Source: Branchiostoma floridae (lineage: Eukaryota; Chordata; Leptocardii; Amphioxiformes; Branchiostomatidae). Taken from it: a stretch of DNA of 64,000 nt. The position numbers and the translations under genes were made by a program. Shown here piece by piece: positions 26,192-58,106 of this stretch. Below the pieces are notes generated by a model. That model worked only from the letters and a program-made list of their open reading frames with translations, did no database searches and had not been told where the DNA came from. The DNA lies in assembly GCF_000003815.2 (NCBI RefSeq), contig NC_049979.1, forward strand, positions 34,816,575 to 34,880,574. Direction: 5' to 3'. Numbering within the stretch: the first letter of the stretch is position 1; the number at the start of each line of letters is the position of its first letter.

Positions 26192-26737
26192 TCATGGAAA
26201 CGGCTCCACTGGCTGCTGCACCATTTTCCTCTGCAGTGGTTTGCTGGTTGTTGACAGTGGCGGTACCTTCTTTGTGAGCTTCAGCCAGAGGAGGGTGTGC
26301 CCTGGTCTCCTCCAAATCGGCGACATTTTCCATGGGTTTGACTGTTCCATCTTCACCTGCAGTCGTTTGCTGGTTGGACCTGCGGTAGTTTGCTGGTTGG
26401 TAACAGTGGCGGTTCCTCCGTTGTTCTGGTGAGCTTCAGGAAGAGAAGAGCATGCCGTGGTCTCCTCCACATCGGTGGCAGACCGTATGTCTGCAGTAGG
26501 GTCGGCTCCACCTACCACTGCCCCGGCTTCACTTGCGGCGGTCTGCTGGCTGCTTGCAGATGCGGTTCCTCCAGGTCTGTCCTGTTGAGGCTCATCGCAA
26601 TGAGCGCGTGCATTGTTCTCCCTTACAACTGCAACAGTTGCCATGGGGATTTCCTCAGTAGAGCCGGTTCCATCTTCCTTTACCTCTGTCTCACCTGCGG
26701 TGTTCTCATCGACGTGCACAGCAGCTAAAGTTGCCAT
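26192..26737 (-). other. Open frame continuing the receptor tail in another frame
   Basis: Overlapping the last 13 bases of the receptor CDS, a different frame stays open for 181 codons. It reads acidic Thr/Glu-rich text with repeats of GSTEEIPMAT and phrases such as RSATDVEETT. The receptor tail itself has DSATDVAMTTPTDVEENKT, a clearly related composition. A small indel near 26750-26790 would therefore have shortened a longer ancestral tail, or this is a low-complexity 3' UTR that arose from the tail by repeat expansion. Confidence 0.4.
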
Positions 26738-28834
26738 GGGGATTTCCTCAGTAGAGCCGGCTCCACCTGCCTTTCACCCCCGATGCTCTGCCGCCTGCCA
26801 GCGGAGACGGTTCGACCTCCGATGACCCGCCGGGCCCTGGCTGTGGAGGTTCGTCCTTTCCCTGGCTGAAGTCGCGTCTTGTTCTCCTCGACATCAGTGG
26901 GAGTTGTCATGGCTACGTCTGTAGCTGAGTCGGTTCTAGCAGCTGTCATCTTAGTGCTCCCTTTGATGGTCGACCGGCTGGTACCAGTGGTGGTGGTTCG
27001 TCCACTGTCCTGATCTGGTTCGGCCAGACCCAAGCGTGCTCTGATCGCAGACCTCCATTTCTTCAACATCTTTGACGTTATTGTCAGTATCATGGCCAGT
27101 AGAAGGCCCTGAGAAGCGTTCAGCACGATGAAGAAGTACTCGACAGCTCTGCTGTTGACGTAAGGATAGATGAAGCCGAGAAGCCAAGTGAACCCCATCA
27201 GATAGGAGAACCGCACGTAGACCCAGGCCTTGGTACTGTTTGAGCGCGTCAGTGCAGCGTCTGCTATCTTAAACGACTTCCGTATGGCCAGCAAGACAAA
27301 AGTGACCAAGACGGCATTAACCAGAAAGGCACAGAGGACAGGAACTCCGAAAGCCACCAGACTGGCAGTCGGATTGCCGATCCAACAGTTCTCTCCGTAC
27401 CCCACCCTGACAGAACTGCCGAACTCCACGATCACTGTCAGTACTACTACAGGCACCGGCATCAGACAGGTATACAAGCGGTACTGGTACAGTTGGACTC
27501 TTTCTAAACCGTCACCAAACGTAAGAAAGAGATCAATAGCAAGCGCGTTCATGGATGTGAAGATGGTCAGCAGGAGGTAGTGCAGAAGTATGGCGAACAC
27601 TGTACAGCCCACTCCGAGAGGGACCCACACACGAACCACAAACATGGCTTCAGCAAATGCCGTGCATGCCATCATCTGAACCTTCAGCTTTTCCGCGACT
27701 CTTTCCCACTGGCCAGACCGGACAGAGTAGACCGCGCAGACAACCACGGCTACGGCAGACACTGTGACAAGCCCCAGGGTTAACCAGCCCTGGTATGGGT
27801 CCCTGCTGGTAGTCGTGAAGTGCGGCAGTATGCACTCCCCGCAGATCGAAGCTGTTGTGTTCAGAATGGCCACCTGCTCAGGTGGGCAGGACACGTTAGA
27901 ACTCAGCAGGTGGACGCTGCCATTGGGAAGGACACGGAACTCTTCAGCTGTGAACGTCAAAGCGGGTTCGCTGCAGTTTTGTGCGGGGATAGTTTTGTTT
28001 GATGAGCCGTGAGTTCTACGGGAGGACGAGAGGAGCCTGCATGTGTCTGTGAAGGGATCATATACAGTACCGGCGGGGCACTGATTGGGACTGTTTCCAC
28101 CACCCCCATAGGCATTAAAGTTGAACAGGTTAGTTAGTGAGAATCTGTCTGGACAGTGTGAGTGTTTGCAGTCGATACTCTGACCGCTGTCGCTATCCCG
28201 AGTGTTATTACACCATAAGTGTGTGGTTGCCGTTAGAGAGAGTCCTTCGCAAAGAGCACAGTGGATATTTCTGTAAATCTTATGTCCGATGCCTATTGGA
28301 TAACTATAGGACCTACAGGCAGTAATGTTACAAGTCTCGTGGGAAATATCAGACTGGACACATCGTCTATCATATGAGTCTCCTGAAGGGATGAACATTA
28401 CTTTGTTCGTTCCAGTGCAATCTTCCGAACTATCAGTGATGCTATTGTAGGCCTGTGAACCTACATGGGTGTGTGAGGACAGATTAAGCAGTCCTGAACA
28501 CTCCACTTCGGAATCCCATAAGGTTACGTCTGTTAAAGACGCGTTGTTACACATTGCACAGAATATGTTTCTGTAGGGGGCTCCATTCACAAGTAATCCA
28601 GACCCCACAAGCGTAGAAGTATGTACCACGGGCATCCGGTAAACCAGATCACCCGGGTTGAAGGGATCCGCCTGTTTCACGCACTGATCCCTGGTGACGT
28701 CATCCGTCCAGTCGTCAGGGCAGTCGCCAACCATCCAATAGGACCTCCTAACGGTCAGAGAATTCACAAATCCGGACACACAGCTCCACTTCAGCTGGTG
28801 GTAGTCAGGGGGCGCTGCAGCAAAGCTGTCTTCT
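26725..28834 (-). other. Last exon: Cys-rich ectodomain, 7TM domain and tail
   Basis: The exon begins EEDSFAAAPP in phase with the SMB exon. It holds two similar motifs, APYRNIFCAMCNNASL and HKIYRNIHCALCEGLSL (residues about 570-585 and 669-685), a pattern seen ahead of the 7TM in several invertebrate SMB-containing class B-like receptors. TM1 begins at WLTLGLVTVSAVAVVVCAV (834) and TM7 ends near 1070. The whole 7TM region is in one exon without introns, unlike the ectodomain. The tail is rich in Thr, Ser and Arg. Confidence 0.88.
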
Positions 28835-31800
28835 CTGTAGCGGGTGTAATGAAGTCAACAGTTACTGAGTTAGTCACGCTACGAAAAACTACAATTCTGT
28901 AAAGTTATTCATCTTCTTGAAGAAATACCATGTGTGTTTTCATATGTTTTGCAAAGGGATATCAACACGAGGTCAGGATTCTCTGTCACCATGGAAACCA
29001 TTCAGAGCCATGTTTGGCTCTATCACCATGGTAACCAGCAACTCTGACATGCTTTATTGTTAGTATATGCATGTCTTCATAAAGAGATGCGTGCTGGTCA
29101 TTCAGGCCGACCACTAGTAATAAACGAGTGCTGGAAGCCTGTCAGGAAAATTGAGGTCTACTTACTCGTAGTCCTGACAACAGTCACCGAAAAAGCTGCA
29201 GTCGTTGTCACAATAACACAGTCTACCTTTGCCGAAAGGAAACTCACCACAGGTATAGGCTTCTTTGCAGCCCTGGCCGATAAAATCCAGTGACAGAGGA
29301 TCTGGGAAAACAAATGAGCGAATAAATGGCTGTCGGTACAGAACAACTTGACTGTTTTTTTAACCTTACGTTTCAGATGATTGTTGATGCATACTTTGCA
29401 GTTAAGTCAAGATATCTTTCTACACCACTGGGTATGGTACAACTTATAACCGAGTTCATCACAAGGAAAATCTTCCACGAGGAAAAAGCTCTTCTACGAT
29501 CTTTCTAGTCTGGTATACAAACCTTTTAAAGCTACTGAGTCTTTCTTCTTCTTACACATACAGAGTATTACGGGACAAGGCGCCTATAATAGGTTAGGCT
29601 ACCAGGCTAGATCATTCGACGAAAGAGACGAATTCTGTTTGGGTCGTTCTTTCGGATCACGAAGTTTGGGCATTCAAGATGTATTTTTACATATCTGTAA
29701 GTAAAATTTGAGTACCGAGAATAAATCATAACTTTAGATTTACTAACCAGCACATTCCATCACATTGCAGTAGTCCCAACTTTGGGTCCCGTCCGTGGTG
29801 TAGCACCAGGGCCGCTGCTTGTTGTCAGGGTTACGACAGAAGTTCTCCTCCAGGCCTGCATCAGGATGAGCCTGTGGTGTGTGGGGATGACTGTGGGGGG
29901 ACTGGGAGTCCCATCTCTGACACACCCGGTCTCCTGCCCTGTACAGACATACGGTATGGTGTTAAATGTGTTAAGAGCCTGTGGTGTGTGGGGATGGCTA
30001 TGGGGGGACTGGGAGTCCCATCTCTGACACACCCGGTCTCCTGCCCTGTACAGATATATGGTATATAAACGTGTAAAGAGCCTGTGGTGTGTGGGGATGG
30101 CTGTGGGGGGACTGGGAGTCCCATCTCTGACGCACTCGGTCTCCTGCCCTGTACAGATATACGGTATTTAAACGTGTAAAGAGCCTGTGGTGTGTCGTGT
30201 GGGGATGGCTGTGGGGGGACTGGGAGTCCCATCTCTGACACACTCGGTCTCCTGCCCTGTACAGATATACGGTATATAAACGTGTAAAGAGACTGTAGTG
30301 TGTGGGGGACTGGGAGTCCCATCTCTGACACACCGTGGGGATGGCTGGAAATGAATGAATGAATGTACATTTGTCGTTCTTCTTCTATTCTCAGTACTTT
30401 GTAGGTTACTAAGCTTTCCAGCTAACCCCACCTGTTAATCTGTCCCGCATAGCTCCTCCCCCTATCCGCTCACCTGTTAATCTGTCCCGCATAGCTCCTC
30501 CCCATGTCCGCTCACCTGTTAATCTGTCCCGCATAGCTCCTCCCCCTATCCGCTCACCTGTTAATCTGTCCCGCATAGCTCCTCCCCCTATCCGCTCACC
30601 TGTTAATCTGTCCCGCATAGCTCCTCCCCCTATCCGCTCACCTGTTAATCTGTCCCGCATAGCTCCTCCCCCTATCCGCTCACCTGTTGATCTGTCCCGC
30701 ATAGCTCCTCCCCCTATCCGCTCACCTGTTAATCTGTCCCGCATAGCTCCTCCCCCTATCCGCTCACCTGTTAATCTGTCCTGCATAGCTCCTCCCCCTA
30801 TCCGCTCACCTGTTGATCTGTCCCGCATAGCTCCTCCCCCTATCCGCTGCGTAGAAGCACCGAGTCGGTGGAGCTGAAACAGAAAACCACGTCAGGGCAG
30901 AAGATACAAAAACCGGATAAGATATTTTGACCATTAAGAAATGTCCCCACAATCCATCCATCCCTAGGATGAACCAAAAGTCTTCAACTTTGGACAAATT
31001 TAGGGGGAACAATAAGTCTTCAAAATTAAGGATCATAAATGACAAAAAAACGCCTATCTTAGGAGCAGCTAGCTTCGTCAACGTGGAGAGTAGACTATAG
31101 ATGTAGCGATAGAGCCTTAGAGTTACAATGAGTTTAACAATGTGTCAAAAATTTAGATAAATGTTGATACATATCATCATTCAAGCTTGTGTTTGTAGGA
31201 GCATGATCTTTAAACAGCGCACAAAAGTTGAAGTTACCGTCACAGGCGAAGACCTCCTCGCAGTACATCCACCTGATGAGCGGGTTGTTTGTGTAGCACC
31301 ACGGCCTGTCCTTCCCGTCCGGGTTCCGGCAGTAGTTCCGCTCCAGCCCTGCCCGTGGGTGGGCCTGGGGAGTGTGGTTATGGGGGTGGGGGTACTGAGA
31401 TGTCCAGAACTGACAGGTGTCGCTCCGGTTTGCAATCCCCCTGTAGCTCGCCCCTCTGTCATGTAGATAGTAACAGTCTGCGGACATAAAACGTTACATC
31501 GTAAACGTTGTGCACGAAAGGACTCTACATTCCTAACAGCAGGCACAGAAATTCTGGACGTGGTCGATTGTGGTAAACTTTAACTCACAACTATAGCCCT
31601 ACACATGAGACAGCTAAACTAAGTAAAAGTACCAGCCTATAGCTTGATGGAAACATGAGATGAATAAGATTATTGCAAGCAACTGACGATTTTATGTTTA
31701 GCTCCTAAATATTCTGCAGGAACTTATCCTTGTATCGTTAGAGGCCACTGTGAATAATTCATGATCAGTTCTGTGTACAATTTGAAGAGGTTGTCAGTAA

Positions 31801-34800
31801 ATACTGTGTGTGCAGAACTCACCACAGTTCCTCTCGTCACTGTTGTCCCCACAGTCGTCTCTACCGTTACAGCGAGTAGCCGGGTGGAACAGGGCGCCAT
31901 TGTCACAGGCAGAGGCACCTGAGGGGCAGAAAATATCCGCCATCACAGTCCAATACAGAAACCCAAAACGCCTGAGAGGCTCTTAGAGTCTTGTTTTGTT
32001 GTAAATTTGTAGTAAATAAAAAGAATCAGCTTTGCAGTGGGAGTAAATACTTACCTTCTCCGCTGCTGCAGTCCACCCTGCCCTGCCGCTCGCCTGTAGC
32101 AAACAGAAGTAGAAACATCAAACCTGCATGGCCGTGAATATTATACTGTTTGCCCATCTTTTATGTTGAAAGATAAACAAGTTAGTGGATATAAAGACAG
32201 GGCAATAATTTTGTACAAGCATGAAAACAGATACAAAGCACATTTTAAACAACAGATATAACCGCGCATTCAGCCATCTTTGTCTCATTTGCAACAGCTG
32301 CAGTAGGTTTGTAGCAAGAGCAAACATGTTACCAATGAAGGCATTGGGGTGGTAATATAAAATTTCTACCAAGTCATAAAAGCTAGCATCGTAATTTGGA
32401 AAGTCGATCATAGAAAGACTACCTGGCAATTTCAAAGGTCCAACTCAAGAAAATCAGAGTTTTATTCATTAAACAACAGATTTACAGGTAAGGAGAAAAG
32501 GAGGAAAGAAAAGGAGACATGTTAGTTCTGTGTGTCCATACTCACAGCAGTTCTGCTCGTCTGTGTTGTCTCCACAGTCGTCATTTCCGTCACACACGAG
32601 TGCCTTACTGATGGTGGCTCCGTTCGGACACATCTCATCGTCTAGAGTAAAGAAGACAGAAAGTCGTCGGAAAAGTGTAAAAATATGCACTCAAGTTCAT
32701 GCGCGTAGAATGCAGCTGGTAGACAAAAGATGAAGACACATCTCACAACATGTAATGCACAGAACTGGCCTGTGCTAAAGTTTGTTCATTTCTAGACTCT
32801 TCTGTTACAACTTTTGTCTGTTTGGTTCGTGCCTTACCGCAGTTTTCTTCATCGCTTCCGTCGTCACAGTCCACTATCCCGTCACAGATCACCTCGTGCA
32901 CGTCACAGTCCCCGTCCGTACAGACCGTCCTGTCCAGCCCGGAACAAGCTGGGCGAACAGAAGGAGATACAGGGTCTGTTTTAATCACAGGAATGTTACG
33001 TTTTGGGCCGCTCCAAGCTGTCGATGGACCTTCATGATATTCGGTAGGTGGTTTGCAATCGAGGAGACTAAGGTCAAGTTCGATAACGTGTACCGTATCT
33101 TCTACCATTAAAACTGCTATGTATTTTTGTTTGTTCGTTTGTTTGTTCGTTTGTTTGTTCGTTCGTTTGTTTGTTCGTTTGTTTGTTCGTTTGTTTGTTC
33201 GTTTGTTTGTTTGTTTGTAAACAACATAACTTATGAAGCCATAGGTGCATCTTCATATTTGGTAGGTGGGTTGATGTGAAAACAAAGGTCAAGTTAGATA
33301 ATGGGCCTTCTAGCGCCTTTCTGTGGTACTGCAGCAGAATTTCTGTGTTTCAGATCTTGTAAGAAGCTACGATTGCTGCAGACGACGTTTTGGAATTCCA
33401 ACCAATGTTTGTAAATGGGTACCTACACTACTAAATATAGATTTGCCTCATTAAAGATTGATTACTGTCGCTGTGAGAATGCCTGTAAAGGCAGGGTATA
33501 TGTTTTGGTATCTCGTTTGTTTTCAATTTCTCCTGGACCGGCTGATATAGCTGAGAACATATTAGACCAAAATTGCAAAATACTGGTTATATCACATGAT
33601 TTAAAATAAAGCAGAATTGCTTTTCTATATACTACAAATATGTCCATTAACTTTCCAAAGTAAGAACACAAGACTATTTTTATATTGTAAACATGTGGTA
33701 TGCATTATGGTTTCCACATATCATCCTTCGTGAAATCTTTTGACAGTGACGATTTGATTAAGAAGCATTTATGGGATTCTCTATGATCTGCTATCATTAC
33801 CCTGTTGCTATATATAGACATGCCATTCACAAACTTTACCACATTCACGGACGAGAAAATGACAGAACCGACAAATTATTGAAAAAGTTGGGCCTTTGTC
33901 TTTCTCAGCTTTTAAAAACGAAACCCAACCTGTCTAGATGTAGCCAACACCAGCATTCGAGTAGTCTCCTTTTTACAATAATGTTTACCACTGTTCATTG
34001 TCACATGTATGTCTTCTATGCATATGTTTCTACCATGTACCTCTGGGCATGAACTTGAAAATAAACTTTCATTTCAGTACATAAGTAATAGTGAGTACTT
34101 ACCCTGGAGAAACTCTATCTCGCTGATTTCCCTCCGCCCTCCATCCAGAAACTGCAGGCGCCAAGTCTGTGCTGTGGCGAGGAGTCCGGTCAGGTCAACT
34201 CCGTTCAGACTTATTTTGTCCACCCTTTTATACGGATGGCTGACGTGCGCCACTTCAGTATAGCGTCTTCCCGTCCATCTCCTGACCGTGACGTCCATGT
34301 CTCCGCTCTCCTCCTCACCCTGGTACCACATCCGGATCCGCGACAGCGTCATGGACGTCTGCAGGTCAAACGTCAGCTGCCAGGTGGCCTCATCATCTCC
34401 ACGTCTCCAAGTCGTCTTGAAGTTGGAGTCCAAGACGTACCCGGCGACATGTCGGACTCCGTCGTCGCCCTTCCATTGGTCCGGTGTCACCCATGTCGGG
34501 TCGGTCTCCACCCAGCCGCCTGTCGGTAATAGAAGCCTTTCATTAATGTTTTACGGAGGTGTGTATAAAGGCGGTTTTACACAGCGGGAAATGTCTGTAT
34601 CACGGAGGCATGTATAAAGGCGGTTTTACACAGCGGGAAATGTCTGTATCACGGAGGCATGTATAAAGGCGGTTTTACACAGCGGGAAATGTCTGTATCA
34701 CGGAGGCATGTATAAAGGCGGTTTTACACAGCGGGAAATGTCTGTATCACGGAGGCATGTATAAAGGCGGTTTTACACAGCGGGAAATGTCTGTATCACG

Positions 34801-36179
34801 GAGGCATGTATAAAGGCGGTTTTACACAGCGGGAAATGTCTGTATCACGGAGGCATGTATAAAGGCGGTTTTACACAGCGGGAAATGTCTGTATCACGGA
34901 GGCATGTATAAAGGCGGTTTTACACAGCGGGAAATGTCTGTATCACGGAGGCATGTATGAAGCCGGCTTTACATAGCTTAGAAATGTCTGTATCACGGAG
35001 GCATGTATAAAGGCGGTTTTACACAGCGGGAAATGTCTGTATCACGGAGGCATGTATAAAGGCGGTTTTACACAGCGGGAAATGTCTGTATCACGGAGGC
35101 ATGTATAAAGCCGGCTTTACATAGCTTAGAAATGTCTGTATCACGGAGGCATGTATAAAGCCGGCTTTACATAGCGGGAAATGTCTGTATCACGGAGGTA
35201 TGTATAAAGCCGGCTTTACATAGCTTAGAAATGTCTGTATCACGGAGGCATGTATAAAGCCGGCTTTACATAGCGGGAAATGTCTGTATCACGGAGGTAT
35301 GTATAAAGCCGGCTTTACATAGCTTAGAAATGTCTGTATCACGGAGGTATGTATAAAGCCGGCTTTACATAGCGGGAAATGTCTGTATCACGGAGGCATG
35401 TATAAAGCCGGCTTTACATAGCGGGAAATGTCTGTATCACGGAGGTATGTATAAAGCCGGCTTTACATAGCTTAGAAATGTCTGTATCACGGAGGCATGT
35501 ATAAAGCCGGCTTTACATAGCGGGAAATGTCTGTATCACGGAGGTATGTATAAAGCCGGCTTTACATAGCTTAGAAATGTCTGTATCACTGTGCGGTATT
35601 TACAGATTGGTCTATTGAGTCCCGTGCAAAGTAACGAAGATTTTAAGGCCTAAGATAAGCTAAAAACTCTGGCAATTTTACAGTTCTGCGACCTTTCCCC
35701 CACATTTACCGAGGGTGTGACGCCAGCGTGACAAGGAGCAGATTAATTTTGGTCTGAGAAGGGACTAACGAAGTTGCTAAATTCATGAGGTGAAGTTATT
35801 CTTGAAGTGAAGTTGTTCTTACTGAAGTTGTTCTTGAAGTGAATTCAAGTCTGTGGTTTGGGTGACAGAGGAAGAGTGCCACCCGACATAAGTCAATTCC
35901 AGTCCGAGAAGAGAACTTAGGAATAAGTCTTCCTGTTGATCTTGCTTACCATCCTATCTTAAAGCCCGTCCCCGACTTACAGAGCTGCTGATTTGTAAGA
36001 AAACTTCTGTTTATTTACGGATCATAATGACCCCCCCCCCCCCATCGCCTAGTGAAAAATAGATTTGATATATGTTATTGAGATGCTGTGGAAAGTCTTG
36101 AGACAAGTTGCTCACCCGTAAGCGCGAGTGCACCTGACAGCCAGCGGCACAGAACCCACAGCAGCACCAGCGAGGCCAT
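26725..36179 (-). CDS. Discoidin/LDLa/kringle/SMB 7TM receptor (1,187 aa, 11 exons)
   Basis: Exons in coding order: 36179-36116, 34519-34103, 32948-32838, 32641-32546, 32093-32055, 31918-31823, 31477-31238, 30873-30810, 29938-29748, 29301-29166, 28834-26725. Phases match throughout and the total is 3564 nt. Domains: signal peptide 1-20; discoidin-like galactose-binding fold 22-160; LDLa 161-197 and 198-229; 13-residue linker from a 39-nt microexon; LDLa 243-274; kringle 275-354; kringle 355-439, split by a phase-2 intron; somatomedin-B about 440-484; Cys-rich N-glycosylated ectodomain to about 830; seven TM helices about 834-1070; Ser/Thr/Arg-rich tail. The 7TM part has class B/adhesion marks: NCWIG in the second extracellular loop, MGFTWLLGF in TM6 and LNASQGLLLA in TM7. 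No GPS cleavage motif (HL/T with paired Cys and Trp) was seen. It is an orphan receptor, and the ligand and coupling are unknown. Confidence 0.87.
29166..29301 (-). other. Somatomedin-B exon
   Basis: The exon reads GCKEAYTCGEFPFGKG, LCYCDNDCSFFGDCCQDYE. The CYCDxxCxxxGDCCxDY core with eight closely spaced cysteines is diagnostic for somatomedin-B. Acceptor (CCCAG/ATCC) and donor (GA/GTAAGT) are good and phases 1 and 2 match the neighbours. Confidence 0.9.
29860..30345 (-). repeat. ~105-bp tandem repeat made of an acceptor site plus kringle exon 5' end
   Basis: Four full units, about 103-108 bp each, and one partial unit carry on the minus strand the acceptor CTGTACAG/GGCAGGAGACC followed by codons for CQRWDSQSPHSHPH. 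Acceptor positions on the minus strand are directly after 29939, 30046, 30149 and 30257. Only the unit nearest the rest of the kringle (exon 29938-29748) continues into LEENFCRNPDNKQRPWCY. Using the distal acceptors would shift the frame or reach a stop codon. Confidence 0.88.
30429..30848 (-). repeat. 42-bp tandem repeat, 10 copies, made of a kringle exon end plus splice donor
   Basis: Ten units spaced exactly 42 bp begin at 30429, 30471 and so on to 30807. On the minus strand each reads AGCTATGCGGGACAG...AACAG/GTGAGC, i.e. the last codons of the kringle exon 30873-30810 and its donor. Copy 1 has GTGGGG instead. The copy next to the unique exon part (30807) gives the donor used in the model. 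In the kringle frame every further unit reads AGG-TGA, so splicing from any distal donor would include a stop. Confidence 0.9.
31823..32948 (-). other. Three LDLa exons and a 39-nt microexon
   Basis: LDLa exons: 32948-32838 ([17 protein letters not shown]), 32641-32546 (VCDGNDDCGDNTDEQNC) and 31918-31823 (RCNGRDDCGDNSDERNC). The Asp/Glu calcium-cage residues are present in each. The microexon 32093-32055 encodes CERQGRVDCSSGE with perfect splice sites and matching phases. All are phase 1-1 modules that could be shuffled or skipped without a frame change. Confidence 0.88.
33121..33220. repeat. (GTTT/GTTC)n microsatellite
   Basis: About 25 tetranucleotide units mixing GTTT and GTTC in the intron between the discoidin and first LDLa exons of the receptor gene. 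Confidence 0.95.
34103..34519 (-). other. Discoidin-like (F5/8 type C-like) exon of the receptor
   Basis: One 417-nt phase 1-1 exon encoding about 139 residues: GYVLDSNFKTTWRRGDDEATW, LTFDLQTSMTLSRIRMWYQG, MDVTVRRWTGRRYTEVA, TWRLQFLDGGRREISEIEF. The W, the LxFDL and the final EIEF strand fit a galactose-binding-like jelly roll. The terminal cysteines of classical F5/8C domains are missing, so a related carbohydrate-binding subfamily is possible. Confidence 0.7.
34553..35589. repeat. 49-bp minisatellite, about 21 copies
   Basis: Units ATGTCTGTATCACGGAGGCA plus TGTATAAAGG recur every 49 bp. There are two subtypes: GGCGGTTTTACACAGCGGG and GCCGGCTTTACATAGCTTAG, plus recombinant forms. The first ~8 copies are one type, and the types alternate toward the right. 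The array begins 34 bp from the acceptor of the discoidin exon and fills most of the first intron of the receptor gene. Confidence 0.95.
36116..36179 (-). other. Signal-peptide exon of the 7TM receptor
   Basis: ATG at 36179-36177 encodes MASLVLLWVLCRWLSGALAL, a typical cleavable signal peptide, ending in phase 1 at a strong donor (ACGG/GTGAGC). It is the only compatible start upstream of the discoidin exon. Confidence 0.8.

Positions 36180-37489: not shown

Positions 37490-58106
<20,617 letters not shown>

Follow-up and report, generated by a model that had tools for sequence, protein, structure and literature searches.

Both ends of a single lancelet intron are tandemly repeated, so that each unit of either repeat carries its own copy of the exon–intron boundary. 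The intron splits the second of two kringle domains in a gene on the minus strand of the window, by which we mean the whole stretch of 64,000 nucleotides analysed here. Since both arrays span the exon–intron boundary they fit the definition of a mirage minisatellite, and mirage minisatellites, that is, tandem duplications of an exon–intron boundary, is what they are. We think it likely, from comparison of the paralogous loci, that the acceptor array had a single origin and was spread by gene conversion, and that the intron is spliced mostly through the innermost donor and acceptor.

In what kind of gene does this intron lie? Read as one gene, the minus-strand domains run in the order discoidin-like, three LDLa, kringle 1, kringle 2, Somatomedin B and 7tm_2. 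The features flanking kringle 2 are:

34077..34550, minus strand: weak F5/8 type C (discoidin-like) open frame, best E 0.0046, below the curated cut-off
31797..33252, minus strand: three LDL-receptor class A domains (Pfam Ldl_recept_a; E 8.8e-07, 3.5e-07 and 2.8e-05 for the frames 31797-31982, 32472-32690 and 32746-33252)
31137..31493, minus strand: open frame with kringle 1, without an internal intron (Pfam Kringle, E 1.7e-21)
29161..29358, minus strand: open frame with a Somatomedin B domain (Pfam Somatomedin_B, E 8.1e-07 for the trimmed peptide; the untrimmed frame gave no Pfam match at E ≤ 0.01)
26725..28854, minus strand: 709-aa open frame with a secretin-class seven-transmembrane domain (Pfam 7tm_2, E 2.8e-14)

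In the available parts of PMC2246102, lancelet Adhesion-type receptors are described whose N-termini contain kringle, Somatomedin B and LDLa domains, the expansion of kringle/Somatomedin B receptors comprising ten genes. The present gene resembles them in possessing all three domains, here joined with 7tm_2. It differs in having splice-site repeats, of which those parts of the paper make no mention. Because the scan, which covered part of the exons, gave no match to the GPS domain at E ≤ 0.01 in the 709-aa frame, we do not file the kringle gene as an Adhesion GPCR.

TRF reports tandem repeats on both the donor side and the acceptor side of the kringle 2 intron, on the minus strand. In the order of transcription, and with a slash marking the splice boundary in the motifs given here and below, the features are:

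30810..30873, minus strand: kringle 2 exon 1, 64 nt, starting in phase 1 and ending in phase 2, with the innermost donor AG/GTGAGC
30429-30848, minus strand: donor array (TRF: period 42, 10.0 copies, 97% matches, score 805)
30308..30428, minus strand: intron stretch separating the two arrays, which includes the start of a degenerate acceptor-unit copy
29868-30307, minus strand: acceptor array (TRF: period 103, 4.2 copies, 91% matches, score 708)
29748..29938, minus strand: kringle 2 exon 2, 191 nt, bounded by the innermost acceptor and the donor G/GTTAGT

From innermost donor to innermost acceptor the intron measures 871 nt. The donor unit of 42 bp consists of 37 nt of exon end and 5 nt of intron (GTGAG). 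There are ten AG/GT donors, their last exon bases running from 30810 to 30432 in steps of 42 bp; the distal donors follow positions 30768, 30726, 30684, 30642, 30600, 30558, 30516, 30474 and 30432. Nine of the ten read CAG/GTGAGC and the outermost CAG/GTGGGG, so the GT is kept in every donor unit of the window. The acceptor unit of about 103 bp consists of about 71 nt of exon start and 32 nt of intron end (TTTACACGTTTATATACCRTATATCTGTACAG). Its four acceptors, GTACAG/GGCAGG, have first exon bases at 30256, 30148 and 30045 (distal) and at 29938 (innermost), with spacings of 108, 103 and 107, and a degenerate fifth copy of the unit (75%) lies at 30260-30334. A sequence-only reading had described a 42-bp donor-side repeat of ten copies in the intron of kringle 2, on which TRF and the donor count now agree, and an acceptor-side repeat of about 105 bp in four copies, which the unit length, the spacings and the number of acceptors bear out.

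Ten donors and four acceptors allow forty pairs. When 30873-30810 is joined to 29938-29748 the product is a kringle of 85 codons with phases 1-2-1, and the spliced peptide matches Pfam Kringle with E = 6.1e-25. Each of the nine distal donors places an in-frame TGA directly after the true exon end. The distal acceptor at 30256 is in frame and reaches a stop at codon 86; that at 30148, also in frame, stops at codon 50; that at 30045 shifts the frame and stops at codon 95. Just one of the forty pairs is thus productive, the innermost, and none of the nine distal donors or three distal acceptors is. This is what had been claimed from the letters alone: forty possible pairs, an intact kringle from the innermost, distal donors reading AGG-TGA and distal acceptors shifting the frame or reaching a stop.

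How widespread are such arrays? A protein search of the same genome found kringle 2 exon 2 at 22 loci on nine contigs, the window included, at 84–100% identity. The next match stands at 60%, and none above 64% was found among the 150 scored of 529 candidates. At least two complete acceptor copies are present in 19 of the 22 loci, again counting the window. Of the others, L028 has one acceptor copy besides a partial unit, the only copy in L029 follows an intron end unlike that of the array, and L015 is missing the array-type acceptor together with the start of exon 2. We refer below to the window and 19 further paralogues, with L015 and L029 left aside, as the 20 array loci; they lie on eight contigs (C1, C3, C6, C7, C11, C17, C18 and C141). 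Their acceptor copies number from 1 to 16, as read from one assembly: L012 has 16 (with AG in 15), L010 has 9 and L027 has 2.

Donor arrays were found at three of the 22 loci, namely the window (10 donors), L009 (14) and L015 (16); in the last two, GT was part of the motif used to count donors, and its retention there is uninformative. L009 and L015 are also the closest loci to the window, at 92 and 95% in exon 1 and 97 and 96% in exon 2, as against at most 89% and at most 91% for the other loci. At L009, one of 70 donor/acceptor pairs is productive. At L015 (G000:C18:17538500-17546500) the 16-copy donor array adjoins a truncated exon 2. A normal kringle 2 is unlikely there and has probably been lost, which makes this locus an example of the hazard that such arrays pose.

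The 32-nt intron part of the acceptor unit was found, at up to 3 mismatches, in 74 places in the genome, all of them within the loci of this kringle family; the reversed pattern, used as a control, was found in none. At that threshold the sequence is confined to the family, and we rejected the idea that it is a mobile element present elsewhere.

If so many splice sites are present, which of them does selection see? In all 20 array loci the reading frame from the innermost acceptor, as set by exon 2 itself, runs through exon 2 without a stop. For 14 of these loci an open kringle also results when exon 1 is joined to that acceptor; in the other six the donor was misread by a loose motif (L021) or exon 1 was not found by motif (L022 and L024-L027). 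The 75 distal acceptors behave otherwise. Forty-eight shift the frame and meet a stop, 8 are in frame and meet a stop, 6 are shifted but open, 11 are in frame and open, and 2 have no AG; that is, 64 of the 75 are shifted, stopped or without AG. The 103-bp consensus unit itself contains no stop in its three sense frames (P 0.0105, mononucleotide shuffles), a property that may be due to chance; a minority of distal acceptors therefore stay open.

The exon parts of the units tell the same copies apart. Compared with the consensus, 314 of 5576 cells differ in the distal copies (5.6%) and 26 of 1398 in the innermost (1.9%), about a three-fold difference in divergence. Exon indels are present in 14 of 77 distal copies and in none of the 20 innermost ones. 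Stop gains in the distal units (35) match the number expected (35.8), and we rejected on that ground the idea that selection keeps the distal acceptors translatable. Synonymous changes make up 15 of the 26 seen in the innermost copies, where 6.9 are expected, and 70 of the 217 seen in the distal exon parts, where 55 are expected (z 2.4), the latter a weak coding signature. The AG is kept in 73 of the 75 distal acceptors, where 68.6 are expected (P 0.04, for copies that are not independent of one another). With the AG kept in so many, selection against distal acceptors was likewise rejected. Nor are the distal intron parts significantly more conserved than the exon parts (12 of 18 loci, P 0.44).

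We conclude from these differences in changes, indels, stops and synonymous counts that selection, as judged by the sequences, sees the innermost copy and hardly the others. On the same footing the distal copies are not cleanly neutral, because AG is slightly over-retained and a weak coding signature persists; the latter perhaps reflects partial renewal by the coding copy. The sequence-only reading had offered two outcomes, a correct choice of copies or many unproductive transcripts. Since the exon part of the innermost copy is constrained and the distal copies are not, or hardly, comparison of the loci speaks for the innermost pair as the one in use.

Where did the acceptor array come from? 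In seven loci (L010, L011, L012, L017, L021, L024 and L025) the outermost copy is preceded, as judged by eye, by an intron end like that of L029. In the clearest of them this old-type intron end reads ...TCTACAG, in L011 TCTAAAG, and it is unlike the 32-nt intron part of the units. We suggest that the array arose once, when the first 71 nt or so of exon 2 were duplicated together with a short filler whose last bases form an acceptor. At loci in which the old intron end can still be recognised, that end is now the outermost acceptor, and its work must therefore have passed to the innermost one, which derives from the array. Birth of the intron from the array was considered and rejected, the old intron end lying outside the array in several loci and being present in the array-free L029.

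If the array arose once, how did it come to be at so many loci? Silent divergence was compared among the 16 of the 22 loci in which kringle 1, exon 1 and exon 2 are all readable; L013, L017, L020, L022 and L024 were left out here and in the Mantel tests below. Kringle 1 shows a value of 0.23. Within kringle 2, exon 1 reaches 0.51 and the final 14 codons of exon 2 reach 0.53, but over the opening 48 codons of that exon the value is only 0.08–0.12. The step at about codon 48 of exon 2 is sharp in the 21 readable loci; in the 16 loci, silent divergence is 0.08 in codons 23–48 and 0.53 after. It resembles a conversion-tract boundary.

Distal units differ by about 8–9% between loci. Two observations count against our account: distal exon parts are as different within a locus (10.2%) as between loci (10.5%), and for only 31 of 77 distal units does the nearest neighbour lie in the unit's own locus, although this is above all of 500 shuffles of the labels (mean 11.3, maximum 24). 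Mantel tests were made on 14 of the 22 loci. As a control, kringle 1 was compared with exon 1 plus the exon-2 tail, giving rho 0.41 (p 0.0045). The gene compared with the distal units gave rho −0.45 (one-sided p 0.98), the negative sign being unexplained, and the gene compared with the exon-2 block gave rho −0.02 (p 0.51). In the most diverged third of gene pairs silent divergence is 0.46 and unit divergence 0.07; in the least diverged third the values are 0.19 and 0.09. Because unit divergence is low and does not rise with gene divergence, the array and the exon start appear to be younger than the surrounding genes.

Ectopic gene conversion is probably the cause of this spread, and the best-supported one. 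The array would have passed between paralogues that had already diverged, and conversion would have carried some 145 nt from the start of exon 2 along with it. Silent divergence in the exon-2 block is just as low in the array-free L029, and the array is thus not needed for homogenisation of the exon; conversion may act on the exon as such, or L029 may have lost its array by contraction. A bolder statement, that the acceptor minisatellite arose a single time within an exon and spread by ectopic conversion, in the manner of a parasite, into some twenty old paralogues on eight contigs, taking the exon start along and replacing the original acceptor while its unused copies drifted, strikes us as evenly balanced between true and false.

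Could the array instead have been inherited vertically with the gene duplications, its units evolving slowly under constraint on their sequence and passing between no loci? A constrained sequence would also lose its correlation with the age of the gene, and the weak coding signature and the AG retention of the distal units are what such constraint might leave. Against this, frameshift indels and stops do accumulate in the distal units, and yet the units differ by only 7% in that third of gene pairs whose silent divergence has reached 46%. Moreover, the intron that follows exon 2 is essentially unmatched between loci (about 0.7 mismatch in ungapped comparison, to which indels contribute). Vertical inheritance appears unlikely to us, and we retain spread by gene conversion as the working account.

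How would the spliceosome find the right pair? The sequence offers it little basis for choice, because the same nine-mer stands at nine of the ten donors and the acceptor units are much alike. Conservation of the innermost copy nevertheless suggests that the innermost pair is mostly used. For the acceptors, exon definition would favour the innermost, whose exon is 191 nt long as against 298, 401 and 509 nt for the others. For the donors, whose copies are near-identical, the right one could be selected only by position, as the 5'-most and the first to be transcribed. With the next donors the exon would measure 106, 148 or 190 nt, each a normal length. Since exons ending at distal donors are of normal size, and the choice of acceptor is aided by exon definition, leakage would be expected mainly at the donors; it would always bring an immediate TGA and would probably end in nonsense-mediated decay.

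On the other hand, the distal sites might be used on purpose, the number of copies setting the share of transcripts that are unproductive or bear an insertion, either as a splicing rheostat or to make repeat-peptide isoforms. GT is present in all ten donor units of the window and AG in 73 of the 75 distal acceptors, the consensus unit lacks stops in the three sense frames, and an open in-frame insertion would result from 11 of the 75. But the distal stop gains occur at the random expectation, the majority of distal acceptors shift the frame, which is to be expected of a unit of 103 bp, and indels interrupt the exon part of 14 of the 77 distal copies. In the window not one of the three distal acceptors or nine distal donors is productive, and donor arrays were found at only three of the 22 loci. 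We consider purposeful use of the distal sites improbable and prefer predominant use of the innermost pair. As to the arrays being artefacts of assembly, tandem arrays are prone to misassembly and a run of N lies at the array edge in L013, but the acceptor array, with private variants, recurs at 19 further loci (C3, C6, C7, C11, C17, C18 and C141 included) and, in the available parts of PMC3902484, both a second look at existing sequence data and new data confirmed such repeats in one lancelet gene, so that we give this explanation almost no credence.

Mirage minisatellites have already been published for lancelet genes. The available parts of two papers describe them in the globins BflGb6 and BflGb9 and in Adh3 (PMC3087553), and in TnC and PGBD5 (PMC3902484). 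Splicing is said to be undisturbed in Adh3 and the globins, the Adh3 data and RT-PCR of the globins having suggested regular splicing (PMC3087553), and also in Adh and TnC (PMC3902484). As far as those parts go, the published mirages and the present arrays share tandem copies of a 5' or a 3' boundary, with AG/GT kept in many of the copies. The unit lengths are alike, 10–160 bp in the published cases and 42 and 103 bp here. Copy number is variable in the former, and the present paralogues have 1–16 acceptors and 10, 14 or 16 donors. The present locus differs in that both ends of one intron are amplified. A comparable arrangement possibly exists in PGBD5, where the repeats overlap exons 3 and 4 (2 or 7 copies of 60 bp and 3 or 6 copies of 108 bp, depending on the assembly; PMC3902484). 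It differs further in its acceptor array, which some twenty dispersed paralogues have in common and which seems to have supplanted the old acceptor. In the accessible parts of the open-licence literature we found no report of a double-ended mirage or of spread through a family. We conclude that the repeat is of a known kind, and that its new parts are apparently the double-ended form and the spread through the family.

Duplicated splice signals are also familiar from alternative splicing at tandem acceptors of the NAGNAG type, where they offer alternative choices. Models of intron gain by duplication of AG/GT are cited in PMC3087553. These models, NAGNAG-type splicing and the present arrays all have in common that splice signals are duplicated and alternative choices result. 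What is unlike is that whole units of 42 and 103 bp are repeated here, and that every distal choice in the window is unproductive.

Do other repeats in the window lie across splice sites? From the 55 TRF rows we selected nine further tandem arrays and inspected their edges; two of them span an inferred splice site (45013-45565 and 39522-40306). The array at 45013-45565 (plus strand) is a donor mirage with a 115-bp unit; it contains five copies of AACAG(C/T)GTGCAG/GTACG, the real donor included, and stands where an F5/8 type C exon of the adjacent plus-strand gene is inferred to end. The array at 39522-40306 (plus strand) is an acceptor mirage with a 46-bp unit, which contains 14 exact copies of TGTACAG/TTTGCACCAG, the innermost included, and leads into an LDLa exon. 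One of the six distal acceptors examined there (40244) is open and in frame. Two others of the nine, both long minisatellites, are intronic: that at 34553-35589 ends about 33 bp before an inferred acceptor, and that at 51712-52391 starts about 15 bp after an inferred donor. A 30-bp tandem repeat at 57437-57610 (plus strand) lies within an open frame and encodes a ten-residue repeat. At 53859-56827 (minus strand) there are open frames of 727 and 270 aa, which, judged by eye, resemble those of a non-LTR retrotransposon.

Loci with so many near-identical donors and acceptors test the ability of the spliceosome to choose by position where the sequence helps it little. About twenty paralogues with 1–16 acceptor copies amount to a natural copy-number series for the study of splicing accuracy and nonsense-mediated decay. 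If the spread proposed here is true, mirage repeats can move splice sites between genes. An old acceptor would then have been swapped for a new one with the protein unchanged, which bears on the turnover of introns.
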